Of a stretch of DNA of 64,000 nt, positions 37,650 to 53,603 are shown in pieces. How positions within the stretch are numbered: the stretch's first letter is position 1; the number at the start of each line of letters is the position of its first letter. The position numbers were made by a program, and so were the translations under genes. The notes beneath the pieces were generated by a model. It searched no databases and was not told the DNA's origin. It was given only the letters and a program-made list of their open reading frames with translations. Source of the stretch: Arthrobacter sp. Marseille-P9274 (lineage in GTDB: Bacteria > Actinomycetota > Actinomycetes > Actinomycetales > Micrococcaceae); assembly GCF_946892675.1 (NCBI RefSeq), contig NZ_CAMPOV010000002.1, positions 372,001-436,000 on the forward strand, in the 5' to 3' direction.

Positions 37650-38657
37650 TCAGGATACGTCGATAGTGATGATGGCGGGGCCGGCGGGCGAGGCGTCCGC
37701 CCTTGCGCCGGTTTTCGAGGTGACGCCGCGGGAGACGCAGCAGCACATCTTTTCCGTGGCCTTCTGCTGGCGCTCGCTGTAGAACACGTCGCGGTGGTCG
37801 ATGCCGCCGTCGAGCGCCAGGATCCGCACCTCGCAGAGGCCGCATTCGCCCTTGCGGCAGTCGAACATCATGTCCGCTCCGGCGTCTTCGAGGGCCTCCA
37901 GCATGGAACGGCCCTGCCCGACCTTCGCCTCGATGCCAAGCCGGGGGACCTTGACGATGAACTCCTCCGGGTCGAACCAGCCGCTGTTGCCGAAGGTCTC
38001 GTAGCGCAGGTTCGGGGAATCGAGCTCGCGCTCGGACCAGGCCCGGCGGACGGCGTCCATCAGCCGGATCGGCCCGCACATGTAGAGCTCCGTGTCCAGG
38101 TCCGCCCCGGCAACGAGTTCGTCCACCTTCAACGAGGTGCCCTCGTCGTCGACATGGACCACCAGGTTCTCCCCGTGCCGCTCCTCCAACTCGGCCAGGT
38201 ACGCCATCGCGGCGCGGCTGCGGCCGGCATATACCAGCGTGTAGCTGGCCTTGAGCCGCTGCAGGACCGCCGCCATGTTGGCGATGGCCGTGATGCCAAT
38301 GCCGCCGGCGAGCAGGAGGTAGCGCTCGGCACCCACCCGCAGCGGGAAGTTCTGCAGCGGCTGCGTGATCTCCAGCTGCTGCCCGGTTTCCAGCCCGTGC
38401 ATAAAGACCGAGCCGCCGCGGGACTGCGGAGCCCGCATCACGCTGATCACCAGGCGGCCGGCGTCGTCGGACTCCACCACGGAATAGGAACGCTTCTGCT
38501 CCTCCCCGCCGATGGTGACCTTGACATCGATGTGGGACCCCGGTTCCGCCGCCTTGGGCAGGGCGGGTTCCAGCACAATGCGCCGGATGTCCGTCGCGAC
38601 GGTGTGGATTTCGACGACGGTGGCCCGCTGCCAGACTTCGGTATTCGTTGCTGCCAT
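37650..38657 (-). CDS. vanB: Vanillate O-demethylase reductase subunit
   Basis: A 335-residue reductase of the class IA type: an N-terminal flavin-binding domain (KRSYSVVES), an NAD-binding domain (LLLAGGIGITAIANMAAV, YMCGP) and a C-terminal plant-type [2Fe-2S] domain with C267, C272, C275 and C305-307 (CRKGECGLC...MCCC). It passes electrons from NADH to VanA. 30 bases separate it from vanA. The Rieske partner and the AAHS carrier on either side support vanillate over phthalate, which uses similar reductases. Confidence 0.88.
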   Translation of the reverse strand: MAATNTEVWQRATVVEIHTVATDIRRIVLEPALPKAAEPGSHIDVKVTIGGEEQKRSYSVVESDDAGRLVISVMRAPQSRGGSVFMHGLETGQQLEITQPLQNFPLRVGAERYLLLAGGIGITAIANMAAVLQRLKASYTLVYAGRSRAAMAYLAELEERHGENLVVHVDDEGTSLKVDELVAGADLDTELYMCGPIRLMDAVRRAWSERELDSPNLRYETFGNSGWFDPEEFIVKVPRLGIEAKVGQGRSMLEALEDAGADMMFDCRKGECGLCEVRILALDGGIDHRDVFYSERQQKATEKMCCCVSRGVTSKTGARADASPAGPAIITIDVS

Positions 38658-38687: not shown

Positions 38688-39782
38688 TCAGGCGGTCGGG
38701 ACCAGGCGGCCCTCGGCGTCGAGCATCCGCTCGATCAGCCTCCGCACCCACATGCCCCCGGCGTCGATGTTGAGGTTGTAGAACTCGTAGTCCGGGTTGG
38801 CGTCGATGGCTTCCTGCTGAGCCTTGAGCATCTCCTCGTCCTCGCCGAACACGCCGTGCACGCCGTTGCGCAGCTGGGTCGTGATGAGCTGGCTCTCCAG
38901 CCGGTAGTTGCGCATAAACGCCCAGAAGTAGTGGCAGGATCGATCAGTTTCCGGGGTGATCGTGTTCATGACGAAGCCGTTCACGCCCTGGCTGCGGTCG
39001 CCCTCGGGTGCCCCAGTGCCGGCGGCCGCCACACCGACGTCGATGCAGATGGTGGACGGCGCCTGGAAGGTGATGATCTGCCAGCGGTCCACCCTGCCCT
39101 CGAACCCGGGGAACTTGTCCCGCATGTTCTTGAGCCAGAACGGCGGCGCATCGATGTCCAGCATCCACCGCGAAACCGTGACGGTGTTGCCGTCGTGCGA
39201 GACGACGAAGTCGGACTCGCTGAGCTCCTCCTGGCCGATCGAGGACGAGTGCACGAACTCCTCGTGCGTGAGGTCCATCAGGTTGTCCAGCACCAGCTGG
39301 TAGTTGCACGGCGCATGGATCGTCTCGCCGTCCCCGGCCCACTCCTCGGAGGACATCTGGTGCATGTCCGGCACCAGGTCGGGGTCCGCCTTGGTCGGAT
39401 CACCGAGCCAGACCCACACATAGCGGTGACGCTCGACGACGGGAAAAGACGGGACGGTCGCGCTCGGGTTGATCGTCTCCTGGGCCGGCATGGACATGCA
39501 GCGGCCCGCGGAGTTGTAGACGATGCCGTGGTACGGGCACTGGATGCCATCCTTGCCGACGGTCTTTCCCATCGACAACGGGGCCAGCCGGTGCCAGCAC
39601 GCGTCGGCGAGCGCCACGGCCTTGCCGTCCTCGGTCCGGTAGAGCGCCACCGGGCGGTTGGCGATCCGGCGGGACATCGGAGTGCGCGTGACCTCGTGGT
39701 CCCACGCCGCCACGTACCAGGCATTCAGTGGGTGCCCGAGGACCTTATTGGTCGTCGAACTCTGGGATTGGACAGCGGTCAC
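38688..39782 (-). CDS. vanA: Vanillate O-demethylase oxygenase subunit
   Basis: A 364-residue Rieske oxygenase. The Rieske centre is C62, H64, C82, H85 (CWHRLAPLSMG...CPYHG, spacing C-x-H-x17-C-x2-H); the mononuclear-iron region contains NLMDLTHEEFVHSSSIG. It demethylates vanillate to protocatechuate and formaldehyde. I chose the GTG at 39782, preceded by AAAGGA, over the TTG at 39806, which would lie inside the operator. Protocatechuate ring-cleavage genes are not in the window. Confidence 0.9.
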   Translation of the reverse strand: MTAVQSQSSTTNKVLGHPLNAWYVAAWDHEVTRTPMSRRIANRPVALYRTEDGKAVALADACWHRLAPLSMGKTVGKDGIQCPYHGIVYNSAGRCMSMPAQETINPSATVPSFPVVERHRYVWVWLGDPTKADPDLVPDMHQMSSEEWAGDGETIHAPCNYQLVLDNLMDLTHEEFVHSSSIGQEELSESDFVVSHDGNTVTVSRWMLDIDAPPFWLKNMRDKFPGFEGRVDRWQIITFQAPSTICIDVGVAAAGTGAPEGDRSQGVNGFVMNTITPETDRSCHYFWAFMRNYRLESQLITTQLRNGVHGVFGEDEEMLKAQQEAIDANPDYEFYNLNIDAGGMWVRRLIERMLDAEGRLVPTA

Positions 39783-39804
39783 TGCGGATCCTTTCGGCTG
39801 ATTC

Positions 39805-39865
39805 AACTATCTATCTCCATAGATAGTGCTCTGGGTCACCAGAATAACTATCGATATAGTGATTT
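39805..39865. promoter_or_regulatory. Two VanR-type operators in the vanA-vanR intergenic region
   Basis: Site 1 (39805-39828): AACTATCTAT-CTCC-ATAGATAGTG, arms matching at 9 of 10 positions. Site 2 (39842-39865): GAATAACTAT-CGAT-ATAGTGATTT, with a perfect ACTAT-N4-ATAGT core. The 10-N4-10 dyad is the architecture reported for VanR of C. glutamicum, as I recall. Between them the sites cover both divergent promoters. A third copy lies at 52804-52827. Confidence 0.75.
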
Positions 39866-40954: not shown

Positions 40955-42505
40955 CTAGCCCGAGTACTGCTTCCGCAGGTCCGCCTTGCGGATCTTGCCG
41001 CTCGCCGTGCGCGGCAGGTCATCCACGATCACCACGCTCTTGGGGATCTTGTACCGCGCAACCCGTCCCGAGAGGTGGTTGATGACGTCGTCGCCCGTGA
41101 GCTGGAAGCCGTCCCGAAGGGTGACGATTGCCCGCGGGACCTCTCCCCACTTCTCGTCCGGAACACCGATCACCGCGACGCTGCTCACCGCCTCGAGCTC
41201 CACGATGACCTGCTCAACCTCGGCCGGATAGATGTTTTCACCGCCGGAGATGATCATGTCCTTCAACCGGTCCGAGATGAAGAGGTAGCCCTCGTCGTCG
41301 ACATAGCCCATGTCCCCGGACCGGAACCAGTCGCCGTCGGCGTAGCTGTCCGCCGTGGCATCAGGACGCTGCCAGTATTCCTTGATGACGTTGGGGCCCT
41401 GGATCTGGATCTCCCCCACCTCACCCGGACCGGCCGGCCCGCCCAGCGGGTCCACGATCCGGACGTCGGTGAAGAAGTGCGGCAGGCCGGCGGAACCGGC
41501 CTTCTCCCGCGACTTGTCCGACGCGAGCGTGGTGGTGCCCGGCGCGGTCTCGGTCATTCCGTACCCGTTGGTGAAGGACAAACCACGCGCCTCATAGGCC
41601 TCCAGCACGCGCATCGGAACCGCGGAGCCGCCGCACGTCAGCTTGTTGAGCGAACTGACATCGGTGGTATCCCACGCCGGATGTTCACAGATCAGCTGGA
41701 ACGTCGTCGGCACGCCGCTCAGGGTGGTCACCTTGTACCGCTCCACCAAGTGCAGCGTCCGCCCCGGATCGAAGCGCGGCTCCAGGATGACGGTGGCGCC
41801 CTTGAGCAGCGACGGCAGCACTCCCATGCCCAGCGAGGCCACGTGGAACATTGGCGCAATCATCAGCGACACATCCTTGCTGGACAGATCGAAGTCCACC
41901 AGCACGTTGAAGCTGTTCCACGTCATGTTCGCGTGGGTCAGCAGGGCCCCCTTCGGGCGGCCCGTGGTCCCGGACGTGTAGAGGATCATGGCCGGATCAT
42001 CGAGCGCCACCTCAAGGTCAAGGTGCGTGTCGGCTCCGGAGGCGATGACGTCTTCGAAGAGTTCGACGGCGGCGCCCGCCCCGTCTTCCGGCGCGCCTTG
42101 CGCCGCGGCGTCCTCCACGACGATGCGGCGCTCCACCCCGGTATCCCGGGCCCCGCCGACGGCCAGCCCGTCAAGGCTGCGCGCGTTGACCAGGATCCGG
42201 CTGCCCGAATCCTCCAGCGCGAACTGGATCTCGGGCGGCGCCAGCCGGGTGTTCAGCGGAACAAAAATGGCGCCTAGGGTGCCGCAGGCGAAGAACGTCT
42301 CTAGGAAGGCCGCATGGTTTTCGCCAAGGTAGGCGACCCGGTCGCCCTTGGCAACGCCGCGGTCCGCGAAAGCATTAGCCAGGCGATCCACGCGGCTGGC
42401 GAAGTCCGCGTAGCTCAACTCGGCCCCGCTGCTGACGAGCGCCACCTTATCGGCGAACTTCCTCCGCCTGCGGTGGATCCACGTCCCGACCCCTTGGTTG
42501 TGCAT
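40955..42505 (-). CDS. Acyl/aryl-CoA synthetase (AMP-binding)
   Basis: A 516-residue ligase of the ANL superfamily. AMP-binding motif YTSGTTGRPKGALLTH; NGYGMTETAPGTT; GDWFRSGDMGYVDDEGYLFISDRLKDMIISGGENIYPAEVEQ (adenylation and hinge) and the C-terminal lysine motif PRTASGKIRK. It forms a CoA thioester of a carboxylic acid via an acyl-AMP. It resembles medium-chain, cinnamate-type or fatty-acid ligases; feruloyl- or coumaroyl-CoA synthesis is a reasonable guess given vanAB nearby, but no hydratase-lyase is seen here. It is divergent from the phn-like operon, sharing its promoter region. Confidence 0.85.
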   Translation of the reverse strand: MHNQGVGTWIHRRRRKFADKVALVSSGAELSYADFASRVDRLANAFADRGVAKGDRVAYLGENHAAFLETFFACGTLGAIFVPLNTRLAPPEIQFALEDSGSRILVNARSLDGLAVGGARDTGVERRIVVEDAAAQGAPEDGAGAAVELFEDVIASGADTHLDLEVALDDPAMILYTSGTTGRPKGALLTHANMTWNSFNVLVDFDLSSKDVSLMIAPMFHVASLGMGVLPSLLKGATVILEPRFDPGRTLHLVERYKVTTLSGVPTTFQLICEHPAWDTTDVSSLNKLTCGGSAVPMRVLEAYEARGLSFTNGYGMTETAPGTTTLASDKSREKAGSAGLPHFFTDVRIVDPLGGPAGPGEVGEIQIQGPNVIKEYWQRPDATADSYADGDWFRSGDMGYVDDEGYLFISDRLKDMIISGGENIYPAEVEQVIVELEAVSSVAVIGVPDEKWGEVPRAIVTLRDGFQLTGDDVINHLSGRVARYKIPKSVVIVDDLPRTASGKIRKADLRKQYSG

Positions 42506-42874
42506 CGTTACACGTACCCTTCGCTATTCGTTCCGACGACGGATCTGAGGACCGAGTCCCTTCACCAAACGAGCCGGTGAGTCCCGTCACATGTTCGTAC
42601 CCATACGTTAGGAACTATTGATTGAATAAGTCAATAGTTGTGAAAACGCTGAATACCGCCCGCGGAAATCAAAACCGTTGACAACTTCAATCGATAGTGA
42701 TGCACTGTGTTTCGCACCACACACATCCCAGACCCTTCGATCAGCGTGGATCAATAGGCCACAGTTATTTGAGCTTCAGACTACATAACTGGCGTCCATT
42801 GTCCGGCACGAACCTGATCCGGCCGGACCCGGACGGTCAGCATCCAGCCAAAGGAACCACAGGAAGACCCGATC
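42506..42874. promoter_or_regulatory. Divergent promoter region of the CoA ligase and the ABC/P450 operon
   Basis: A 369-base, relatively AT-rich gap without a gene. At 42613-42639 there is a perfect 9-bp inverted repeat, AACTATTGA-N9-TCAATAGTT, which is a candidate operator. TTGACA at about 42677 is followed by TCGATAGTGAT, which resembles half of the VanR-type site (ATAGTGAT). The PhnD gene SD is GGAAG. PaaX (47708-48670) is the nearest regulator for the dyad. Confidence 0.6.
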
Positions 42875-43867
42875 ATGCACAAGATCTTCAAAGCCGTCGC
42901 GACTTTGACCGCGGCCGGACTCCTGCTCACTGCTTGCGGCGCCAGCCCCAATGCGCGCACTAATTCGGCGAATGCCGAAGGTGAGGCCCCCGATTCCCTC
43001 GTCTTTGCGGTTGTTCCGACCGACGACAGCAAAGAGCTGGAGAACAGCTTCAAGCCGATTGTGGAGGCGATCGAGAAGGAAACCGGGCTCCCGACGAGCA
43101 TCGAGGCGGTGAGCAGCAACGCGGGCGTGATCGAGGCCCAGGTGGCCCAGCGGGTAGACGTCGCGACCTACGGCGCATTCTCCTACTACCTGGCCAAGGA
43201 CGTCGCGGACGTCACTCCGGTTGCCATGGACCAGCGCACACCGGAATCCGGCTCGGGCGCCGTGCAATCCCTCGGCGTCGTTCCTTCCGGTTCGGATATC
43301 GGCCAGCTGGCGGATGTGAAGGGCAAGGACGTGTGCTTCACCGACCCGGCTTCCAGCACCGGTTACCTGGCCGCGGCGGCGGGCATGATGGAAGCCGGCA
43401 TCGACCCGGAGAAGGACATCAACCCGATCTTCGCAGGATCGCATGATGTTGCGGTGACCCAGATGCTCGCCGGCGACTGCGACGTAGCCTTCGTGGCGGC
43501 CACCTTCATCACGGACTTGCTGCCGGCCCGCGGCATCCTCCAGGACGGCGATGTGGAGACCGTCTGGACGTCCCCGGACATTCCTGGCACACCGCTCGTC
43601 GTCGGCAACTGGTTGCCCGAGGAACTGCGCACCAAGATCACCGAGGCCGTTTTCAAGTACGACGCCGTCACCGGGGCCGAAGCGGGTCTCTGCCCGGACA
43701 ACCAGCGCGAGGCGCCCGAGGCCTGGGGCGACGAGTACGCGGGCCAGATGGCCTGCGAGTGGGGCGGCACCGGCGCTTTCGCCTTCGAGCCTGCTTCCGA
43801 GGCCGATTTCGACTCGATCCGCGAAATCTGCGAAACCACCCAGGCCGAAGTCTGCCGCAACGAGTAG
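42875..43867 (+). CDS. phnD: Phosphonate-type ABC transporter substrate-binding lipoprotein
   Basis: A 330-residue PhnD-family lipoprotein (lipobox LLLTACG). Family features: LVFAVVPTDDSKELENSFKPIVEAIEKETGLP, an AQRVDVATYGAFSYYLAKD block, FTDPASSTGYLAAAAGM and HDVAVTQMLAGDCDVAFVA. PhnD proteins bind phosphonate, phosphite or phosphate, but the family is broad, and neighbouring genes point to an aromatic or other organic acid. There is no C-P lyase or phosphonatase gene in the window. First gene of an operon with the ATPase, permease, P450 and PaaX-type genes. Confidence 0.8.
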   Translation: MHKIFKAVATLTAAGLLLTACGASPNARTNSANAEGEAPDSLVFAVVPTDDSKELENSFKPIVEAIEKETGLPTSIEAVSSNAGVIEAQVAQRVDVATYGAFSYYLAKDVADVTPVAMDQRTPESGSGAVQSLGVVPSGSDIGQLADVKGKDVCFTDPASSTGYLAAAAGMMEAGIDPEKDINPIFAGSHDVAVTQMLAGDCDVAFVAATFITDLLPARGILQDGDVETVWTSPDIPGTPLVVGNWLPEELRTKITEAVFKYDAVTGAEAGLCPDNQREAPEAWGDEYAGQMACEWGGTGAFAFEPASEADFDSIREICETTQAEVCRNE

Positions 43868-43885
43868 TCCCCAAGGAGCCACACG

Positions 43886-44716
43886 ATGACCGCCGCCACC
43901 CGCCGCCCACACATCACCGAAGCCCAGGCCGCCGCACCCGCCGCCGGCGCTGCGGACATAGCACCGCCCAGCTTGCTCCTCCAAGGACTCGGCATGAGCT
44001 TTGGCGGAAAACAAGTGCTTGGCAACGTCAATCTCGAGGTCCGCCCCGGACAGTTCCTGGCCCTCGTCGGCCCCTCGGGTGCAGGCAAATCCACGCTGCT
44101 GCGCCTCATCAACGGCAGCCACCGCCCTACCGCGGGCTCTGTCTCCGTGCTGGGTGCCGATCCTGCTACCTGCAGCCGGAGGGATCTCCAGAAGCTGCGC
44201 ACCCGGGTGGGCTTCGTCTTCCAGCAGTTCGGCCTCGTCGGGCGCCTCAGTGCCCTAGAGAACGTGCTCATGGGGACCTTGGGATCCCTGACGATGCCGC
44301 GCTACGGCATTTCTACGTACCCGAAGGCCCTCCGGGAAAGGGCCGTGGCGAACCTGGAGCGTGTGGGGCTAGTCAACGAGCGGTTCCAGCGCTGCGATAC
44401 GCTCTCCGGCGGCCAACAGCAACGCGTGGCCATCGCGCGAACGCTCATGCAGGAAGCCGAGATCGTGCTTGCGGACGAACCTGTGGCGTCCTTGGACCCC
44501 AGCGCCAGCCTGTCGGTGCTCACTACTCTGAAGAAGCTCAGCGCCGAAGATGGCTTCACCGTGGTCTGTTCCCTGCACCAGGTGGACCTGGCCCTGCAGA
44601 TCTCGGACCGGATCGTTGCGGTCCGTGGCGGCTCGCTCATTATGGACACCCCCACCGAAGCAACGTCGGAAGAGGCCATCCGGGCGATTTACCAGCAGGC
44701 GGGGGATCAACCGTGA
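43886..44716 (+). CDS. phnC: Phosphonate-type ABC transporter ATP-binding protein
   Basis: 276 residues. Walker A GPSGAGKST, Q-loop VFQQFGLVGRLSALENVLMG, signature LSGGQQQRVAIAR, Walker B EIVLADEPVASLDP and the H-loop CSLHQVDLAL. The Q-loop region and 'LDPSAS' match PhnC. An N-terminal extension of about 40 residues rich in Ala precedes the ATPase. The TGA overlaps the GTG of the permease gene. Confidence 0.88.
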   Translation: MTAATRRPHITEAQAAAPAAGAADIAPPSLLLQGLGMSFGGKQVLGNVNLEVRPGQFLALVGPSGAGKSTLLRLINGSHRPTAGSVSVLGADPATCSRRDLQKLRTRVGFVFQQFGLVGRLSALENVLMGTLGSLTMPRYGISTYPKALRERAVANLERVGLVNERFQRCDTLSGGQQQRVAIARTLMQEAEIVLADEPVASLDPSASLSVLTTLKKLSAEDGFTVVCSLHQVDLALQISDRIVAVRGGSLIMDTPTEATSEEAIRAIYQQAGDQP

Positions 44717-46407
44717 GCAGCACGATGCAGGACAATCCCGCCGAGGCGCGGCCGCTGCGGGGCGGAAGCGCCGACGGGGAAATCGTCACGGTGACGACCG
44801 GACCGTCCGCACACCGGACCGGCAAGTGGGCGGGCGTCTCGGCCGCAACGCTGGGCATCCCTCTTGCCTACCTGGCGATCACCGCCTTCGGTACCTGGTG
44901 GATCGACATCCGACCATCGGCTCTGGCCGCGGGCGTGGGCGACATCGCACGGCTCCTCGAGCGAATGCTTCCGCCCACCACGGGTCCGCTCCCGGACCTG
45001 TTGGCGCTGGCGTTGGAGACCCTCTGGATCGCCATCGCAGGTACGGCCATGGCGACTCTCGCTTCCGTGTTCCTGGCCGCGGCCGCCTCACGCCGCTACA
45101 CCGGGCCCAGGGCAGTCCAGTGGCTCGCCCGCGCGATCATCATCGTGACCCGCGCCGTCCCGTCACTGATCTTCGCCATCCTCTTCGTCCGGATTTTCGG
45201 CCTGGGTCCGCTCGCGGGCGGCCTGGCTATCGCCTTCCACTCCGTCGGCATGATCGGCAAGATGATGGCGGACAGCTTCGAGGAGCAGGATCCTGCCCCG
45301 CGTGAGGCGATTGCCTCCGTCGGTGCCACCCAGTTGCAGAACTTCGTCTCGACGACCCTGACCCGCGCCCTGCCCGCGCTGGCGTCGCTGGTGCTCTACC
45401 GGCTGGACATCAACATCCGCGCCTCGGCGGTACTGGGGCTCGTGGGCGCAGGCGGGATCGGCGTAGCCCTCCAAACGGCCATCGGCTCGTTGAACTATCA
45501 GCGGGCGGCGGGCATCATCGCCGTGATCGTGGCCATGCTCCTGGTCCTGGAGCTGGTCTCCTACGTGGTGCAGCGTGCCGTTGCCGAACACGCGGACGAG
45601 CATACACAGTCGCAGCTGCACCGGGCAGGCACCCACCCTGCCACGCCAGGCTGGGACCGCGCCCGCGCACTGAGGACCGGCGGTGCCGTGGCGGCCGCCC
45701 TGCTCTTTGTCTACTCGCTGAGCCAACTCTCCCTCAACCCGGCACGGCTTGACCAGGCGTGGGAGAACGCGCTGGCCCTGCTCTCCGGCTTCGTGCCGCC
45801 GGTCTTCACCGCGGAAGTCGCCCTGGGTATCTTCGAGAGCGTCATCATGGCCCTCACGGCCACGTCCTTCGGCGTGGTCCTGGGACTCGCGATTGCGGTG
45901 CTGTCCACCCGCCACCTCGTTCGTTTCGAGCCCCTTTCCCTGGCCCTGCGAGGCATCGTCGTAGTCCTGCGGGGGATCCCCGACATCATCTACGCCCTCG
46001 TTTTCGTCGCAGCCCTGGGCCTCGGTCCCTTTGCTGGTTTCCTGGCCTTGTCCCTCTCCTGCACCGCGCTGGCCTCCAAGTTCTTCACCGATTCGCTGCA
46101 GAATGTCGACCCCGCTCCCCTGCGCGCCCTCGAAGCAACCGGGGCCAGCCGGCTGCAGGTATTCGTTAGCGGGGTGTGGCCGCAGTTCGTGCCCAGCTTC
46201 ATTGGGAACAGCCTGTTCACATCTGACCTGGCCCTACGCGAATCCGCTGTGCTGGGCATCGTCGGAGCCGGAGGGATCGGTTTCCTCCTCGACGAATCGG
46301 TCGCCACTCTTCACTACCAACAGACCGCCGGCATCCTGATCGGGCTGATCGTCGTCGTCGTAGCCCTCGAGTCCGTGGCCCGCTGGGCCAGAAGAAAGGT
46401 CATCTGA
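44713..46407 (+). CDS. phnE: Double PhnE-type ABC permease (two permeases fused)
   Basis: 564 residues made of two complete PhnE-like halves, each with about six helices and an EAA-type ATPase contact (DSFEEQDPAPREAIASVGATQLQNFVSTTL in half 1; DSLQNVDPAPLRALEATGASRLQVFVSGVW in half 2). Separate PhnE proteins are about 270 residues, so this is a fusion; fused phnE genes are known. The GTG at 44713 overlaps the PhnC stop. Followed one base after the stop by the P450 gene. Confidence 0.88.
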   Translation: MSSTMQDNPAEARPLRGGSADGEIVTVTTGPSAHRTGKWAGVSAATLGIPLAYLAITAFGTWWIDIRPSALAAGVGDIARLLERMLPPTTGPLPDLLALALETLWIAIAGTAMATLASVFLAAAASRRYTGPRAVQWLARAIIIVTRAVPSLIFAILFVRIFGLGPLAGGLAIAFHSVGMIGKMMADSFEEQDPAPREAIASVGATQLQNFVSTTLTRALPALASLVLYRLDINIRASAVLGLVGAGGIGVALQTAIGSLNYQRAAGIIAVIVAMLLVLELVSYVVQRAVAEHADEHTQSQLHRAGTHPATPGWDRARALRTGGAVAAALLFVYSLSQLSLNPARLDQAWENALALLSGFVPPVFTAEVALGIFESVIMALTATSFGVVLGLAIAVLSTRHLVRFEPLSLALRGIVVVLRGIPDIIYALVFVAALGLGPFAGFLALSLSCTALASKFFTDSLQNVDPAPLRALEATGASRLQVFVSGVWPQFVPSFIGNSLFTSDLALRESAVLGIVGAGGIGFLLDESVATLHYQQTAGILIGLIVVVVALESVARWARRKVI

Positions 46408-46408
46408 C

Positions 46409-47683
46409 ATGGGCCAGTGCCCCGTAGGCTTCACCGCTGCCGTGCAAGAGCGGCCGGCGGACACCCGAACAGCCAGCGAGCGCGGGTCCGAATGGTCGCC
46501 GGCTCTGGACGAAACGTTCGGCAGCGCCCACCAGGACTACGCCCGGCTGCGCCGGAGCAACCCCTTTCCCTGGAGCAGCGATTTCGGCGGATTCTGGTCC
46601 GCCACCACGTACGAGGACATTGCTCGGGTCGCCCAGGACGACGACCTGTTCATCACCTCAGTGCAGAACGTCGTGCCGCATGTGCCCCGCTCATCGCGCC
46701 GTCCCCCTTTGCATTTCGATCCGCCCGAACACACGGCGTACCGGGAGGCGATCGATCCGGTCCTCCGGCGGTCCTTGCTGCGCAATCACGAGGCCGCCTT
46801 CCGGGCGAGCGCGGAAGAGCTGCTGGACGGGATGCTCGCCGGAGACGGCGCGGACGGGGTCCGCGACTTCGCCGCTCCGTTCGTGATGGACTGCTTCGCT
46901 GCGTTCCTCGGCGTCCCTTCCTCGCTGACGCGGCACATCAGGGACATCGGTGTCCGCTACGCCTTCGCCATCCAGGACATGGACAACGAGGTGATCGGCG
47001 AGTGCAGCGCGGAGCTGTACCGGATTGCGGAGCAGGTCTATCGAGACCGTGTGTCGGCCGGCGCCGACCCGCGGCGGGACCTCGTCTCCAGCCTCCACCA
47101 CGCTGCCCTTAGCCCGGACAACCACATCACCGAAGGGACCGCCATCGCCACCATCCGCCAAATGATCGTGGCAGGAATGGGCGCTCCCCAGGCAGTACTG
47201 GGCAGTTGCGTGGTGCATCTGGCCCAGGACCAGGACCTGCAGCGGCACCTTCGTGAGCATCCCGAGGAGCTTCCGTCCGCGATCGAGGAGTTCCTCCGCC
47301 TGCATGCGCCCTACCGGGTGTTTGCCCGCACCGCGCGGCGGGACACGGAGTTGCACGGACGCCTGGTGCGCGCAGGCGAGCCCATCGCGCTGATCTTCCC
47401 CTCTGGCAATCGGGACGGGACCGCCTTCCCGGATCCGGACACGTTCGTGCTGCGCAGGCCCAACAACTCCCATCTTGCTTTCGGCCGGGGCGCCCACAAA
47501 TGCCCCGCGGCCACGATGGGCCGTCTGGAACTACTCATCGCGCTGGAGGTACTCCTGGAACGCACCGAAGCCTTCGCGCTGGCTGGCGACGTCGTGATGA
47601 TGAACTGGCTCGAGTACGGACCACGCTCCGTCCCCCTGCAGTTGGCAGGACGGACAGCGGCAGGCAAGCAGGCGGCGTCGTAG
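46409..47683 (+). CDS. Cytochrome P450 with atypical I-helix
   Basis: 424 residues. Heme loop HLAFGRGAHKCPAA (Cys365 ligand), ExxR at E294-R297 (EFLR), and FDPPEHTAYR at the B-C loop. In the I-helix the usual acid-alcohol pair (A/G-G-x-D/E-T-T/S) is replaced by VAGMGAPQAV at 254-263; no Thr is present. Similar unusual I-helices occur in some O-demethylating P450s (for example GcoA, AMQEPGH). It probably acts on an aromatic ether or acid brought in by the adjacent importer. No ferredoxin or reductase is adjacent. Same strand, one base after phnE, so same transcript. Confidence 0.85.
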   Translation: MGQCPVGFTAAVQERPADTRTASERGSEWSPALDETFGSAHQDYARLRRSNPFPWSSDFGGFWSATTYEDIARVAQDDDLFITSVQNVVPHVPRSSRRPPLHFDPPEHTAYREAIDPVLRRSLLRNHEAAFRASAEELLDGMLAGDGADGVRDFAAPFVMDCFAAFLGVPSSLTRHIRDIGVRYAFAIQDMDNEVIGECSAELYRIAEQVYRDRVSAGADPRRDLVSSLHHAALSPDNHITEGTAIATIRQMIVAGMGAPQAVLGSCVVHLAQDQDLQRHLREHPEELPSAIEEFLRLHAPYRVFARTARRDTELHGRLVRAGEPIALIFPSGNRDGTAFPDPDTFVLRRPNNSHLAFGRGAHKCPAATMGRLELLIALEVLLERTEAFALAGDVVMMNWLEYGPRSVPLQLAGRTAAGKQAAS

Positions 47684-47707
47684 TCACCGCGATGGCAGAA
47701 TCAACGC

Positions 47708-48670
47708 ATGTCCACTCCAGCGCCGAGCCTGCCGCGCTTCCAGCAGGGAGCACGCCCCCAGCAGCTGCTGACCGTCCTGCTGGGAGACTACTGGCACGCA
47801 CGCAACGAGCCGATCCCCTCGGCGGCGCTCGTGGAGTTGCTGCAGGGCTTCGATGTGACCGTTACGGGGGCGCGTGCAGCCATTCAGCGGCTGGCCCAGC
47901 GAGGCTTCCTAGTGGGGATAAAGGCGGGACGCCAGACGGCCTACGCGGTGCCGACCATGAGCCAAGACAGGATCAATGCGCACGTGCGCTCGCTCTTCAT
48001 GAGCCACCTGCCGCAACAGTGGGACGGCGCCTGGACGCTTGTCGGCTATTCCCTCCCCGAGGATGCCAGGGGCACGCGGCGGGCCCTGCGCGAACAGCTG
48101 CGCCAACTGCGCTTCGGGAACCTGTACGACGCCCTCTGGATCCGGCCGGGCGACCATTTGGCGGCGGTTCGCGACTTGCTGGACGGCCTCGGCAGCGCGC
48201 TCGATCCCGAACACGTTACGGTGTTCACGGGAGCACGACTGCCGGAGGGAACGGGGCTGAGCGCGGTAGCCTCCGCCTTCGACTTGCCGGCCTTGGCCGA
48301 GCAGTATCGCGAATTCCTGGACCGTTGGGAGCCAGTCGCTTCGCGGCTGCAGGACGGGCTGGAGGCCGCCCTCGAGGTCTCGCCCGAGGCGGGAGCCAGG
48401 CCGGGGGACGCGGCCCTCCGCTTGCGCACGTCGATCATGGCCGACTGGCGCACGCTGCGCAGGCTCGACCCCCGCCTGCCGCACGAACTGCTTGGCGAGG
48501 ACTACCCCATGCATCGGGCTGTAGCGGCCTGCTGCGCCATCTACGACGCCCTCGGGCCGCCGGCGGAAGCCGCCTTCCGCCGTATCCTGCGCGCACACGA
48601 TGGGCATCTGGCCGAGCTGGTCACGCACCACACTTTCGCAGCCTCTGCTTCACTGCTTTCCGAGGCGTAG
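47708..48670 (+). CDS. PaaX-family transcriptional regulator
   Basis: 320 residues. N-terminal HTH of the PaaX type (ARPQQLLTVLLGDYWHARNEPIPSAALVELLQGFDVTVTGARAAIQRLAQRGFLV), a central PaaX_C region (WDGAWTLVGYSLPEDARGTRRALREQLRQLRFGNLYDALWIRPGD) and a C-terminal domain. PaaX repressors respond to an acyl-CoA thioester (phenylacetyl-CoA in the model). A CoA ligase gene divergent from this operon could provide such an effector. It follows the P450 gene by 24 bases, and so may autoregulate the operon. Confidence 0.85.
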   Translation: MSTPAPSLPRFQQGARPQQLLTVLLGDYWHARNEPIPSAALVELLQGFDVTVTGARAAIQRLAQRGFLVGIKAGRQTAYAVPTMSQDRINAHVRSLFMSHLPQQWDGAWTLVGYSLPEDARGTRRALREQLRQLRFGNLYDALWIRPGDHLAAVRDLLDGLGSALDPEHVTVFTGARLPEGTGLSAVASAFDLPALAEQYREFLDRWEPVASRLQDGLEAALEVSPEAGARPGDAALRLRTSIMADWRTLRRLDPRLPHELLGEDYPMHRAVAACCAIYDALGPPAEAAFRRILRAHDGHLAELVTHHTFAASASLLSEA

Positions 48671-48771
48671 GCGCGCCGCGCAATTACACGCGGCGCAACA
48701 GCACCTTTCCCCTTATCTCTTTCGCATCGCAGCCGGCCCTTTCATGAGCCGTGCCGCTGGAAGGATTTTCC

Positions 48772-50205
48772 ATGCCCCAACATACGTCCGGTCCGTTACG
48801 TCCGTCCCGGAGACCACGTAGACTCTTGGCGGCCACCGCAGCGGCCTGCCTCGCACTCCCCTTAATCGGCGCCGCTACGTCAGCCGTATCGCCGCCTTCC
48901 GCGAAGGCCGCTCCTCTGGCCGGCAGTGCCGCCGTCGAAAAGCGCGGCACGCTTCCCGGCGGAGGTCGATATGTCCTCTTCGAACCCGCGCAGTGGAACG
49001 GCATCGTGCTGGTATGGAATCCGGGCTACGGCAGCAGCGGTGCCCCGACAGCCGCCGCCGGACCCACGAACCCGGTCAAGGCGTGGCTGCTGGACCAGGG
49101 CTACGCCCTTGCCGGAACCACCGCATCCTCCGGCGGCTGGGCCGTCGAGGATCTCGTCGCTAACCAGCCTGACGTTCTCCGGATTGTCAGCGCAGAGCTC
49201 GGCGAGCCCGAGGAAGTCATTGCCTGGGGTGAGTCCATGGGTGGCCTGACCTCCGCCGCCGCCTTGGAAGCGCACCCGGAACTCATCGATGCCGCATTGC
49301 CGTTGTGCGGCTCGGTCTCCGGCGCGGTTCCAATGCTGAACGGTGGCCTGGACGGCACGTTTGTGCTCAGGATGCTCCTTGCACCCGACGACGAACGGCT
49401 CGAACTGGCCGACGTCCGGAACGAAGCCGCGCGCCAGGCGGCCTTCCGCGAGGTGCTGGAGGAAGCACAGGCCACCCCCCAGGGCCGGGCACGTATCGCT
49501 CTTGCCGCCAGCGCGGCCCAGATACCCGCGTGGACCCAGGCCTCGGACCCGGAGCCTTCAAAGGGAGACCTGGCAGCGCAGCAGGAACAGCTCTACGCAG
49601 CATTCATGTTCGGGGTGGTTTCTCCCCGGCAACCGCTGGAAGCCCGCGCCGGCGGAAACTTCTCTTGGAACACAGGGGTGGACTACGGGCAGTCGCTTGT
49701 CCATTCGGGCAACGCCCAACTGGTCCGTGCCCTCTACCGCGAGGCAGGCCTGTCCCTGTCCGAGGACCTCGGCACCCTCGCCTCCAGCGACCGAATTGCG
49801 GCCGACCCGCGCGCCGTCGCCTACATGCAGGAGAACGCTACACCTGAGGGCAAACTCTCCGGGCCGGTGCTCACCCTGCATGAAACGGGTGACACCGCAC
49901 CGACCGTGGCGCAGGCCGCGACCTACGAGGACCGCGTGCGGGCTAACGGCGACAATGCGCTGCTCCGGCAGGCCTTCGTGGATCGGCCGGGCCATTGCGA
50001 CTATGCCGATGCGGAGATAGCCGCCATGGTCACTACCCTCCATGAGCGCCTTGACGAGGACCATTGGGCCGATTTGGCACATCCTGCCTCCCTGAATGCC
50101 CTGGCCGACAGGATCACCGCGGAGAGCGGCCTCGAGCGCGGAGGCTCCTTCGCCAGCTACGCACCGAACAGCATGCTCCGCCCCGAACGGGAGGTACAAC
50201 GATGA
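48772..50205 (+). CDS. Secreted alpha/beta hydrolase 1
   Basis: A 477-residue protein with a signal peptide (RRLLAATAAACLALPLIGAA). The nucleophile elbow is G-E-S-M-G-G (Ser155); VKAWLLDQGYALAGTTASSGG, ALPLCGSVSG, FSWNTGVDYGQSL and RPGHCDYADAEIAA (candidate His) follow. It shares these blocks with the next gene. ATG at 48772 follows GGAAGGA. The family is not named by me; esterase activity on a plant-derived ester is plausible from the neighbourhood. Its stop overlaps the start of hydrolase 2 (ATGA). Confidence 0.75.
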   Translation: MPQHTSGPLRPSRRPRRLLAATAAACLALPLIGAATSAVSPPSAKAAPLAGSAAVEKRGTLPGGGRYVLFEPAQWNGIVLVWNPGYGSSGAPTAAAGPTNPVKAWLLDQGYALAGTTASSGGWAVEDLVANQPDVLRIVSAELGEPEEVIAWGESMGGLTSAAALEAHPELIDAALPLCGSVSGAVPMLNGGLDGTFVLRMLLAPDDERLELADVRNEAARQAAFREVLEEAQATPQGRARIALAASAAQIPAWTQASDPEPSKGDLAAQQEQLYAAFMFGVVSPRQPLEARAGGNFSWNTGVDYGQSLVHSGNAQLVRALYREAGLSLSEDLGTLASSDRIAADPRAVAYMQENATPEGKLSGPVLTLHETGDTAPTVAQAATYEDRVRANGDNALLRQAFVDRPGHCDYADAEIAAMVTTLHERLDEDHWADLAHPASLNALADRITAESGLERGGSFASYAPNSMLRPEREVQR

Positions 50206-51632
50206 CCAGAATTATCCAGACCCCAACCAGGAAAAGCCGGGCGGCAAAGGCCCTTTGCCTGGTCGCCCTCATGGCCTCGGCAGCCCCACTGTCCGCGGCA
50301 CCCGTTTCCGCTTCTCCGCCAGCCTCCAGCCCCACTGCCGTGCCGTTCACCGGAGATCTAGCCCCGGGAAAGGAGCTCATCCGGGAAGGCACCTTGGGCG
50401 GCGAGGCTCCCTATTCCCTCATCAAGCCTGCCATCTGGAACGGCGCCATCGTCGTTATGCCGGGCCGCCCGGACCTTGCCGGTGTCACCGCACGGTGGCT
50501 GGTCGAGCAGGGCTATGGCGTGATCGGCTACGACTTCACGGCCAACTGGGACCTGGAACTGAACCGTGACAATGCGGGTGCCGCCGTCAAAGTGTTCACG
50601 ACCGTCGCCGGAGAGCCTGAAACCGTTGTCGTGAACGGCAGGTCGCAGGGAGGGCTGACCACGCGCATTATCGCCGACTCCCGACCGGAATGGCTCGACG
50701 GCGCCCTGCCGATGTGCGGCGGCGGAGCGGGGTCCGTCAGCACCTGGAACTATAAGCTGGATACCGCGTTTGCACTCCGGGAGCTCGTGGATCCGGGCTC
50801 ACCGATGAGGATCCAAGGTATCACCGACCGCCAAGCCGAACTCCAGGCGATGAATGACCTGGTGGCCACGGCGGCGTCCACCCCTGAGGGACGGGCCCGT
50901 GCCGTGCTCGCAGCGGCCCTTGGAAAGATCCCCGCCGTGGATCCTGCAACCGACAGGGAAATCCCCGAGACGGACCTGGACGCCCGCATCGACCGGTACA
51001 TCGACCATCTGCCATTTGCCATGGGCTCCCACGTCCGCGCCGGATACGAGCAGACGGTCGGCGGCGTCTTCTCGTGGAACACCGGCGTGGACTACGTGAG
51101 GTCGTTGAAGGAGTCCGGTCGATGGTCCGAGATCATGGCTGCCTACCGGGCCGCTGGTATCTCCCTCGAAGAGGATCTGGATGCGCTTGCCTCCGCGAAA
51201 CGGCTGTCCGCAGACCCTGAGGCAGTGGCCTTCGTTGAACGAACCGCAACTTTCACGGGTGAGCTCTCAGTCCCTGTGTTGTCCCTGCACACTAACGGCG
51301 ACGGCGCCGGGACCACGGCGGACGACCAGGCCTACGCGTCGGTGGTCCGCTCGACCGGCTCCTCGCCGCTGCTACGCCAACTGTTCGTTTCGGCTGATGG
51401 CCACTGCACCTTCACCCCGGCCGAAGAAATCGCTTCCCTTCAGGTACTCTTCGAGCGGATAGAAGACGGCCGCTGGGGCGCCACGTCCCCGCAGGCCCTC
51501 TCCTCCGTGGCCGCCGAGGTGAAGGCCCGTTCGGAGCTGGACCTGGGCGCGTCCCGTTTCACCCAAGTCTCCACGGCCGGCACGCCCGCCCGCATGTGGG
51601 ATGCACGGGACTGGGGAAGCTACAGCCGGTAA
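50202..51632 (+). CDS. Secreted alpha/beta hydrolase 2
   Basis: A 476-residue paralogue of the preceding protein: signal peptide (AAKALCLVALMASAAPLSAAP), elbow G-R-S-Q-G (Ser148), LPMCGGG, FSWNTGVDYVRSL and SADGHCTFTPAEEIAS. Same block order and spacing show a tandem duplication, now clearly diverged. The overlap with hydrolase 1 suggests co-expression, perhaps with different ester substrates. Whether the promoter is shared with the P450/PaaX operon is not known; 101 bases lie between PaaX and hydrolase 1. Confidence 0.75.
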   Translation: MTRIIQTPTRKSRAAKALCLVALMASAAPLSAAPVSASPPASSPTAVPFTGDLAPGKELIREGTLGGEAPYSLIKPAIWNGAIVVMPGRPDLAGVTARWLVEQGYGVIGYDFTANWDLELNRDNAGAAVKVFTTVAGEPETVVVNGRSQGGLTTRIIADSRPEWLDGALPMCGGGAGSVSTWNYKLDTAFALRELVDPGSPMRIQGITDRQAELQAMNDLVATAASTPEGRARAVLAAALGKIPAVDPATDREIPETDLDARIDRYIDHLPFAMGSHVRAGYEQTVGGVFSWNTGVDYVRSLKESGRWSEIMAAYRAAGISLEEDLDALASAKRLSADPEAVAFVERTATFTGELSVPVLSLHTNGDGAGTTADDQAYASVVRSTGSSPLLRQLFVSADGHCTFTPAEEIASLQVLFERIEDGRWGATSPQALSSVAAEVKARSELDLGASRFTQVSTAGTPARMWDARDWGSYSR

Positions 51633-51770: not shown

Positions 51771-52754
51771 TTACTGCTGCGGGAGCAGCGCTGCCATGTC
51801 CGGCTTCTCGTCGATCAGGCCATCTTTGAGGGAAATGTCGGCGATGGCCTCGAGGGAGTCCGTGTTTACCTCCTGGGCGAACTTCGGCAGGGTGAGCTGC
51901 TCGATGATGGCGGGGTCCAGCTGGGTGTAGGTCGGCAGGATCCCGCGGACCTTGTCCGGATTGGCGTCGGCGAAGGCCTGCGACTCCTTCATGGCGGCAG
52001 TAAAGGCCTCGGTTTCCCCGGACTTCTGCTGGGCGATCTGGTCCGAGGTGAAGTAGACGGCCACGGTGAGGTCGTCCACGGGATGCGCATAGTTGGAGAA
52101 GACGGGGGTGGCGCCGTCGCCCTTGGCCATCGTCACGAAGGGCTCGACGGCGGCGATGGCGTCCACGTTGTCCTGCTCCAGGGCTGCGCACATGTCCGGG
52201 AAGGGCATCTCCACGTAGTCGATGCTGGCGGCGTCTCCCCCGGCTTCTTGCACGGCCGCGCTGATGGTGGAGTCGGAGATATTGTTGAGCGTGTTGACCG
52301 CAATGCTCTTGCCGGCCAGGTCCGCGATCTCCTTGATGCCGCTCTCCGGCTTGACCATCACGGCGGCGAAGTCCGCATCCTGGTCGCCGGTGGAGGAGGA
52401 GCCGCTGGCGAGGATCTGCAGCGGCAATCCCTTGGACCGGGCGATGATCAGCGACGTTACGTTGCTGAAGCCGAAGTCCATCTGTCCGCTGGTGATGGCC
52501 GGGACGATGGCGGCACCGCCCTGGGCAGGCGTGAGTTCGACGTCGAGCCCGTGCTTTTCGAAAATGCCCTCCTGCACGCCGAGGTAGATCGGGGCGACGT
52601 CAACGATGGGGATGACACCGACGGTGACGGGTGTGAGGTTCCCGCTGGCCCCGGAAGACGCAGCCGCCCCCTCCCCGCCCGAGGGGCTTCCCCCGCCGCA
52701 AGCGGTCAAAGCAAGGACCGCCGTCATCGCCAGAGCCGCACCGAGTTTCTTCAT
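51771..52754 (-). CDS. NMT1/SsuA-like ABC substrate-binding lipoprotein (orphan)
   Basis: A 327-residue lipoprotein (lipobox LALTACGGG) of the NrtA/SsuA/TauA/THI5 type: TVGVIPIVDVAPIYLGVQEGIFEKHGLDVELTPAQGGAAIVPAITSGQMDFGFSNV and GKSIAVNTLNNISDSTISAAVQEAG. No ABC permease or ATPase is adjacent. I chose ATG 52754, after GAGGGG; the earlier start is in the leader. A VanR-like dyad lies 50 bases upstream of it, so it may bind an aromatic acid or be induced with the van operon. Confidence 0.85.
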   Translation of the reverse strand: MKKLGAALAMTAVLALTACGGGSPSGGEGAAASSGASGNLTPVTVGVIPIVDVAPIYLGVQEGIFEKHGLDVELTPAQGGAAIVPAITSGQMDFGFSNVTSLIIARSKGLPLQILASGSSSTGDQDADFAAVMVKPESGIKEIADLAGKSIAVNTLNNISDSTISAAVQEAGGDAASIDYVEMPFPDMCAALEQDNVDAIAAVEPFVTMAKGDGATPVFSNYAHPVDDLTVAVYFTSDQIAQQKSGETEAFTAAMKESQAFADANPDKVRGILPTYTQLDPAIIEQLTLPKFAQEVNTDSLEAIADISLKDGLIDEKPDMAALLPQQ

Positions 52755-52803
52755 GCTTGTACCCCTCACACCTTCCCCGCGCACGATTGTGCGTTGCGCC
52801 ACA

Positions 52804-52827
52804 TACTAACTATTGCCATAGTGAGTG
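52804..52827 (-). promoter_or_regulatory. Third VanR-like operator
   Basis: TACTAACTAT-TGCC-ATAGTGAGTG, arms complementary at 8 of 10 positions with a perfect ACTAT-N4-ATAGT core, as in the vanA-vanR region. It lies in the 219-base gap between the divergent substrate-binding protein and flavin-reductase-like genes and could serve either. Confidence 0.6.
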
Positions 52828-52973
52828 GTCAACGGCGGCGGGTTGCACCTTCATCAAGGTCCGACCGGGAACCCAAGACGGAGGAACTGATCTGCCCGTA
52901 GGCGGGGAGCAAGTCACGTCCAATTTAATCGCGTTGCCGCGGGGGCACGGTGAGGCTGTGGTCAGATGGGACA

Positions 52974-53603
52974 ATGCGCGTTGACATTTCCCCGGAGGAA
53001 CTGGGGCCCAAGGACTTCTACAAGTTCCTCACGTCGGTGATCATCCCGCGGCCCATCGCCTGGGTATCGACGATCAGCGCCGACGGCGTGCTGAACCTGG
53101 CGCCGCATTCGTTCTTCACCGTGGCGTCCACCGATCCGCCCATCGTGCAGTTCACCCCGACGGCCCGCAAGGACAGCCTCAACAACGCGGAGTCGACGGG
53201 CGAGTTCGTGGTCAACTTCGCGCCGGAGGAGTTGTTCGCGGACATCAATGGCACGGGCACCAATTTTCCGCCGGAGGTCAGCGAGTTCGACGCCGTGGGG
53301 TTGGGCACGGAGCCGAGCCTGACCGTGCGTCCACCGCGGGTGGCCGAGTCCCCCGCGGCCCTCGAGTGCCGTGTGCACGAGATCATCCCGGTGGGCAATT
53401 CGTGGCTGGTGCTGGGGCGGGTCCTGCACGCCGCCATTAATGAGGAGATGATGGAGGGCGGCCACCCCGAGGCGACCCGGCTGAAGCCGCTTGCCCGCCT
53501 GGGGCGCAATGAGTGGAGCCGGCTGGGGGAGATTGTGCGGATCGACCGGATCCCGTACCGCGACTGGCCGAAGGACCAGCTGACCCCAAAGGACCGGAGC
53601 TGA
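52974..53603 (+). CDS. Flavin reductase-like domain protein
   Basis: 209 residues of the DIM6/NTAB flavin reductase-like (split-barrel) family: FYKFLTSVIIPRPIAWVSTISADGVLNLAPHSFFTVASTDPPIVQFTPT (FMN site) and FVVNFAPEEL. Proteins of this group bind FMN and either reduce flavins or act as oxidoreductases. I chose the ATG at 52974 (MRVDISPEEL). No partner monooxygenase adjacent. Confidence 0.85.
   Translation: MRVDISPEELGPKDFYKFLTSVIIPRPIAWVSTISADGVLNLAPHSFFTVASTDPPIVQFTPTARKDSLNNAESTGEFVVNFAPEELFADINGTGTNFPPEVSEFDAVGLGTEPSLTVRPPRVAESPAALECRVHEIIPVGNSWLVLGRVLHAAINEEMMEGGHPEATRLKPLARLGRNEWSRLGEIVRIDRIPYRDWPKDQLTPKDRS

Follow-up and report, generated by a model that had tools for sequence, protein, structure and literature searches.

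What is a phosphonate-type importer doing in one block with a cytochrome P450, a PaaX-type regulator and secreted hydrolases? The question arises from a stretch of 64,000 nucleotides of Arthrobacter sp. Marseille-P9274 (G000:C2:372001-436000 of a 4.78 Mb genome), hereafter the window, whose positions serve as coordinates below; its nearest named relative among the loci compared is Arthrobacter mangrovi (L035). We put at about 0.72 the probability that this block of a soil bacterium is a unit for the use of hydroxycinnamate esters that was added to a CouR regulon, CouR being the switch that governs the catabolism of coumaric and ferulic acid. What carries this reading was all computed here: the gene set and its conservation, the boxes common to several promoters, the CouR-like regulator and the co-occurrence with a Cou-like amidohydrolase. 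The genes and elements are as follows.

40955..42505, minus strand: CoA ligase (AMP-binding; PF00501, PF13193)
42621..42635, minus strand: CouR-type box ATTGA-N5-TCAAT facing the CoA ligase (matrix core score 18.9; half-sites perfect)
42677..42691, plus strand: CouR-type box GTTGA-N5-TCAAT over the -35-like TTGACA of the phnD promoter (matrix score 30.7)
42753..42764, plus strand: second conserved leader element, AATAGGCCACAG, a candidate PaaX site (AGGCCAC element, found in 10 of 21 phnD leaders)
42875..43867, plus strand: PhnD-family substrate-binding protein (PF12974, 177 bits)
43886..44716, plus strand: PhnC-type ATPase (TIGR02315, 269 bits against a cut-off of 266)
44713..46407, plus strand: fused PhnE-PhnE permease (two TIGR01097 stretches)
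46409..47683, plus strand: cytochrome P450 (PF00067; Cys365, E294-x-x-R297, G258-A259, R250-Q251)
47708..48670, plus strand: PaaX-type regulator (PF07848, PF20803, PF08223)
48751..50205, plus strand: alpha/beta hydrolase H1, predicted secreted (S162, D381, H415; C186, C416; from alignments)
about 50202..51632, plus strand: alpha/beta hydrolase H2, an H1 paralogue, predicted secreted (S148, D367, H401; from alignments)
G000:C2, about 472-479 kb: Cou-like operon of this genome, with a CouR-type MarR, L141:2802-3329, about 64 kb from the unit, outside the window

Domain searches found the gene order as the initial annotation had described it: a divergent CoA ligase, then phnD-phnC-fused phnE-P450-paaX and two hydrolase paralogues. 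Up to paaX the plus-strand genes overlap or are separated by 1-24 bp, and 80 bp then precede the H1 gene.

Conservation of the block and its promoter element

A scan of genome contigs based on the P450 gave 58 loci, and a search of the family gave 11 of 295 genomes. Once loci present in both sources are counted a single time, the unit set comprises 20 other loci whose P450 has at least 57% identity. PhnD, PhnC, PhnE and PaaX accompany the P450 at all 20, and the block is therefore not a chance association; its recurrence in other genomes, which the annotation had left to be checked, extends over several genera, including Arthrobacter, Citricoccus, Microbacterium, Frigoribacterium, Agromyces, Nocardioides and Thermocatellispora. 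The order phnDCE-P450-paaX is kept at 19 loci, the exception being Thermocatellispora (L050), with two paaX-like genes on the divergent arm and none after the P450. An H1-type hydrolase is encoded at 19 of the 20, either downstream or divergently upstream of phnD, and was not found within the stretch examined at L031. In several genomes the unit is surrounded by unrelated genes, as read from the starts of open reading frames. PhnD (E<=1e-60) occurs in 9 of the 295 family genomes, exactly the nine that carry the P450 clade (Fisher 2.4e-17, relatedness not corrected). Neither PhnD nor PhnE was found at any of 18 loci whose best P450 is 39-46% identical, a check from which L066-L092 (P450 25-35%) were excluded.

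The promoters of the unit share a control element, which is the new part of the finding. When a position matrix was built from 18 of 19 phnD promoters, with the window and L035 excluded, the window's phnD promoter scored 30.7 and was the top match of the window; the maximum that 20 random sequences of 64 kb reached was 15.4. The CoA ligase site scored 15.6 with the full matrix, hardly over that maximum, and 18.9 with its 21-base core, a value that 22 of 20000 random stretches, matched in length and composition, also reached. The shared element is RTTGA-N5-TCAAY, lying over the -35 box (TTGAC). Of the 21 unit promoter regions, 12 hold a perfect copy and 16 a copy with no more than one mismatch; the corresponding figures for randomised regions are 0 of 1050 and 3.2%. 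The perfect copy belongs to the divergent hydrolase in four Microbacterium regions, and a count of each phnD gene's own site gives eight perfect sites and eight with one mismatch. Both window boxes are perfect under this pattern. CouR of Rhodococcus jostii RHA1 is a MarR repressor of p-hydroxycinnamate catabolism that is released by p-coumaroyl-CoA, and its box is cATTGA-N5-TCAATg over the -35 (Otani et al., PMC4737184). The unit box equals the published CouR box.

A predicted regulon that includes a Cou-like operon

The genome-wide pattern WYYRTTGACWNNNNCAAY, searched with zero mismatches in 14 unit genomes, had 35 matches in 13 of them, and the reversed-pattern control had 3. Thirty matches were placed through the loci, the remainder by position or further lookups. 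Sixteen lie at unit promoters, nine in gaps between a short-chain dehydrogenase/reductase (SDR) gene and a marR gene, one before an SDR gene, six before CoA ligases and three before an unlinked H-family hydrolase. Four of the CoA ligase matches precede relatives of the window ligase, namely the window gene itself, that of L035, and unlinked genes in genomes G062 (78% identity) and G296 (63%, behind an SsuA-type gene); the two others precede CoA ligases at 42-43% identity.

The box between SDR and marR stands in front of an operon that encodes an SDR, an amidohydrolase (PF04909), an acyl-CoA dehydrogenase and MaoC; genes for two SsuA-like binding proteins come next. Its counterpart in Microbacterium (L045/L143; SDR 79%, MaoC 66%, acyl-CoA dehydrogenase 61%) also includes a CoA ligase and directly adjoins the unit, with a perfect box in its MarR-SDR gap. 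The final pathway step in RHA1 is carried out by CouO, an amidohydrolase (PMC4737184). By family and order, a CoA ligase, a hydratase, a dehydrogenase and a CouO-type amidohydrolase are all present; the side-chain genes with which the pathway would be complete are located beyond the window. The MarR of the Arthrobacter operon has CouR itself as its best PDB matches (3FM5, 5CYV; 87 bits), with 56 of 112 aligned columns identical. Asp65-Pro-Ser67-Gln68 of CouR is identical in it, Arg38 is kept and Arg36 is replaced by Lys (residue numbers by count); Asp65, Ser67 and Gln68 are residues that the authors predicted to contact bases (PMC4737184). The initial annotation had supposed that a thioester relieves PaaX, whereas the best-supported thioester-sensing switch is this CouR-type MarR.

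The Cou-like amidohydrolase is present in 9 of 9 unit genomes and in 118 of 286 other genomes of the family (p=4e-4). A further search of 14 genomes, four of them duplicates of earlier ones and L043 and L044 not covered, found it in 10 of 10 additional unit genomes, or 19 of 19 overall. The system resembles the Cou regulon of RHA1 in the recognition residues of its CouR-type MarR, in the same box over the -35, and in its CoA ligase, hydratase, SDR and amidohydrolase; it differs in that this box also stands before genes for secreted hydrolases, for a Phn-type importer, for a P450 and for PaaX, none of which appears in the available part of the RHA1 account.

The CoA ligase, which had been counted as part of the block, adjoins the unit solely in the window and in A. 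mangrovi (96%). Relatives of 54-55% identity lie about 2-4 kb from phnD, past the hydrolase genes, at four Microbacterium loci (L039, L040, L042, L045), at the last of which the ligase is the final gene of the Cou-like operon. In L059 a relative of 51% identity neighbours a distant P450 pair, and L064 has one of 34%. In G062 the 78% relative is 1.4 Mb away from the unit, yet has a CouR-type box upstream. The ligase is outside the conserved block but, from the common regulator box, a predicted member of the regulon, and the annotation's broader idea of hydrolases, importer, P450 and CoA ligase as one catabolic set is supported. No CoA ligase was seen in the stretches read around the Cou-like operon of this genome (462-481 kb), which makes the window gene the natural candidate for the ligation step; it is probably the ligase of the Cou-like pathway.

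Downstream of the hydrolases the window holds genes for an SsuA/NMT1-type binding protein and a flavin reductase (51771-53603). Comparable binding proteins are encoded with the Cou-like operon and, in G062 and G296, with a CoA ligase.

Hydrolases, P450, importer and PaaX

The motif G-x-S-x-G-G, the Asp, the His-Cys and one more Cys are invariant in 27 aligned hydrolases, an arrangement that resembles that of tannases and their disulfide. Among PDB structures, the AlphaFold2 model of H1 (predicted local distance difference test, pLDDT, 87.6) matches MHETase best, and the first 50 matches include feruloyl esterase B at rank 16 and feruloyl esterase C at rank 37. These are the best-ranked solved folds, and tannase/feruloyl esterase and MHETase share the GxSxGG, Asp, His-Cys and conserved second Cys with H1 and H2, with only about 15% identity in sequence. 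H1 and H2, whose secretion is a reading of the N-termini made without a program, form a single open reading frame of roughly 885-965 codons in L029, L039, L040 and L048. They look like tannase/feruloyl-esterase-like secreted hydrolases and would act on an ester. A third member of the family, H3, is encoded elsewhere in this genome (L140:3082-5093; G000:C1:195 kb), with a CouR-type box upstream and a DUF3237 protein following; a similar pair seems to sit at L046:15227-17247.

Comparison of the P450 with PDB sequences found no close solved relative (2fr7, which we take to be CYP199A2, ranks about 50th), and assignment to a known P450 family by sequence was dropped for that reason. Enzymes of the CYP199A family act on para-substituted benzoates and cinnamates. 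Across 48 members of the family, C365, E294 and R297 are conserved in at least 97% and R250-Q251 is invariant. The I-helix acid-alcohol pair, usual though not universal in P450s and presumably Asp251/Thr252 in CYP199A4, is missing: all 48 have Ala at the alcohol position, and Val, Gly, Ile or Ala takes the place of the acid. R250-Q251 falls, in an ungapped register that is not a superposition, at Arg243-Ser244 of CYP199A4, which contact the substrate carboxylate according to the available part of a source that also names Ala248 (PMC11854964). The unit P450 thus resembles CYP199A in a basic-polar pair at the I-helix register of the carboxylate contacts, and differs in its distant sequence and the lack of the acid-alcohol pair. 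Its reaction would most likely be O-demethylation or hydroxylation of an aromatic carboxylic acid.

More distant relatives of the P450 (about 40-46% identity), in Massilia, Paraburkholderia, Nonomuraea, Evansella and other hosts, adjoin tannase and other esterase genes and importers (major facilitator superfamily (MFS), TRAP-TAXI, other ABC types) in varied combinations. Further neighbours are CoA transferase III, 2-hydroxyacyl-CoA dehydratase-type subunits and a CapA-like protein. Seven plasmids of Novosphingobium and Croceicoccus carry relatives too, and on three of these an H1 relative is also encoded. Because the importer varies while esterase and P450 recur together at many loci, an ester-derived acid fits as the common substrate suggested for the family.

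Two observations on these relatives stand apart. Sets of CoA transferase III, 2-hydroxyacyl-CoA dehydratase, CapA and esterase genes lie beside them (L065:16111-21001, L051:14016-18833, L057:1443-6604, L107, L108, L109) in both Actinobacteria and Proteobacteria, and a literature search for these distant clusters found no description. On plasmid pNL2 of Novosphingobium aromaticivorans (L106:28-4706) a relative stands beside a LacI gene, a catechol 1,2-dioxygenase gene and muconate genes.

That last neighbourhood bears on the alternative that the unit handles benzoate-type esters (benzoyl, methoxybenzoyl), feeding the neighbouring benABC/catechol route with the CouR boxes as cross-control only. 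One flank of the block does encode BenA and BenC, both above cut-off, and a catechol dioxygenase; this arrangement is kept in A. mangrovi, and the register of R250-Q251 with the carboxylate contacts of CYP199A4 would suit a benzoate as well. Among the loci listed (L023-L065), however, the ben/cat flank occurs only in L035 and its duplicate L023, and the Cou-like amidohydrolase is found in every unit genome searched. We consider this alternative unlikely.

The importer raises the question of phosphorus more directly. PhnD scores 156 bits with the equivalog model TIGR03431, below its cut-off of 261, and belongs to the subfamily TIGR01098. Its AlphaFold2 model (pLDDT 80.4) has PtxB, GpxB and PhnD as nearest folds, and S160, T162 and H190 are invariant in 21 sequences. 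With these anion-site residues kept, and with nearest solved folds that bind phosphite, methylphosphonate and glycerol phosphate, PhnDCE might import a phosphonate or phosphate ester for degradation by the P450 and the hydrolases. Such organophosph(on)ate scavenging is in our view very unlikely. PhnJ (C-P lyase) was found in none of the 9 unit genomes, with a positive E. coli control and with phosphonatases and other phosphonate routes not searched, in agreement with the initial annotation that this is not a C-P lyase operon. The cap Tyr is replaced by Thr239, GpxB Tyr138 by Val130 and GpxB Arg223 by a variable residue (by count in alignments, and by the available parts of PMC5700983 and PMC12718374). 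A sterol transporter and ArrX, with acetate and with malonate, are also in the list of folds; the importers encoded with related P450s are of quite other kinds, and the CouR-type boxes and the Cou-like operon point elsewhere. Phosphonate use as the principal reading was rejected on the lack of PhnJ in the nine genomes and the presence of the boxes. The importer shares domain, fold and the S-x-T plus His anion motif with PhnCDE/PtxB/GpxB (TC 3.A.1.9), and differs in the cap and other head and tail residues, the lack of PhnJ in the tested genomes and its aromatic catabolic context. Its ligand may be a p-hydroxycinnamate-type acid or a small conjugate.

The PaaX-type regulator has the three-domain architecture of the phenylacetate regulator PaaX and differs from it in lying well under the equivalog cut-off (TIGR02277, 114 bits against 264.55) and in the lack of paa genes in the unit. 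The leader element ATAGGCCACA (AGGCCAC) precedes phnD at the loci counted above and occurs once before a hydrolase gene (L026). It has a single match in this genome, and 14 matches genome-wide against 15 for the control, so that position alone speaks for it; it is possibly a PaaX site. PaaX as owner of the TTGA-N5-TCAA box was dropped, the box lying at SDR-MarR promoters and equalling the CouR box. That PaaX is the real switch of a unit serving some other aryl-CoA pathway, the boxes being mere -35 sequence, deserves hardly any credence: paaX is present at all 20 loci and ATAGGCCACA in four of the five leaders that lack a good CouR box, but TTGACA alone would not give the TCAAY half, perfect boxes are absent from the randomised promoters, and the genome-wide pattern lies beside related genes only.

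A proposed pathway and its significance

For the hydroxycinnamate-ester unit we infer the esterase substrate, the transported ligand, the P450 reaction and the inducer, and consider the following steps most likely from their support at the genome level. Outside the cell, secreted H1 and H2 and the unlinked third hydrolase would act on plant esters and free an acid of the p-hydroxycinnamate type. The PhnDCE-type ABC importer would bring in the acid or a small conjugate. The P450 would then modify the acid, by O-demethylation or hydroxylation, and the CoA ligase would form the thioester. The Cou-like operon (acyl-CoA dehydrogenase, MaoC hydratase, SDR, amidohydrolase) would shorten the thioester to hydroxybenzoate or vanillate, which may pass to VanA and ring cleavage. 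The thioester would release the CouR-type MarR repressor from its RTTGA-N5-TCAAY boxes, which lie at the promoters of phnD, the CoA ligase, the hydrolases and SDR/marR.

The flank of the block away from the ben genes encodes a VanA_C/Rieske protein, an aromatic-acid MFS protein, PadR and glyoxalases. The initial annotation had named vanABK here and proposed a methoxylated aromatic acid. The VanA_C domain lies in 38688-39806; the van name for 37650-38657 is weakly backed (Fer2, FAD and NAD domains), and the MFS gene, at 353 bits, is under its subfamily cut-off of 418. Beside the Microbacterium unit L045, MTHFR-like and LigM-type O-demethylase genes adjoin (L045:17166-20435), the latter at 878 bits against a cut-off of 580. 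VanA here, and LigM with an MTHFR-like gene there, suggest that methoxylated substrates may be among those used, so that the earlier proposal is plausible; the best reading of the substrate class is the more specific one, p-hydroxycinnamate-like.

Several points weigh against the hydroxycinnamate reading. The pattern and the matrix were designed from unit promoters and the window CoA ligase site, so that 18 of the 35 genome-wide matches (16 at units, and the window and L035 ligases) arise partly by construction and 17 are independent. Control by CouR is not universal, because five of the 21 unit promoters (L031, L043, L044, L046, L050) are without a box at one mismatch or fewer. With 127 of 295 family genomes encoding the amidohydrolase, its presence in unit genomes is only moderately telling, and the operon is named Cou-like from protein family and order, not from sequence comparison with CouL/M/N/O of RHA1. 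The fold matches of H1 lie at template-modelling (TM) scores of about 0.4 or less, and H1, H2 and H3 searched against Pfam gave no match to a tannase model (no PF07519). PhnD S160, T162 and H190 match the STS-H head motif for phosphite and phosphonate, as given in the available part of PMC5700983, which leaves a phosph(on)ate-bearing ligand possible. PaaX has no assigned part in the mechanism.

A further-reaching suggestion can be offered only tentatively. A transporter family known for small phosphorus oxyanions may have come to import aromatic acids of plants, paired with a P450 that lacks the acid-alcohol pair (Actinobacteria, Proteobacteria, Bacillota) and might carry out an undescribed step such as ether or methoxyl cleavage in hydroxycinnamates or dimers. 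That P450 family sits beside esterases and CoA-thioester genes.

A literature search, which covered few subscription journals, found no description of the combination. The hydroxycinnamate-ester unit would bring together, in one predicted CouR regulon of several actinobacterial genera, the release of plant phenolic acids outside the cell, their uptake, their oxidation and their CoA-dependent breakdown. It offers a concrete class of substrates to test for a Phn-type importer, for a P450 family without a close solved relative and for secreted hydrolases with at most weak Pfam matches, and it implies that a phnDCE annotation alone does not indicate phosphonate use.

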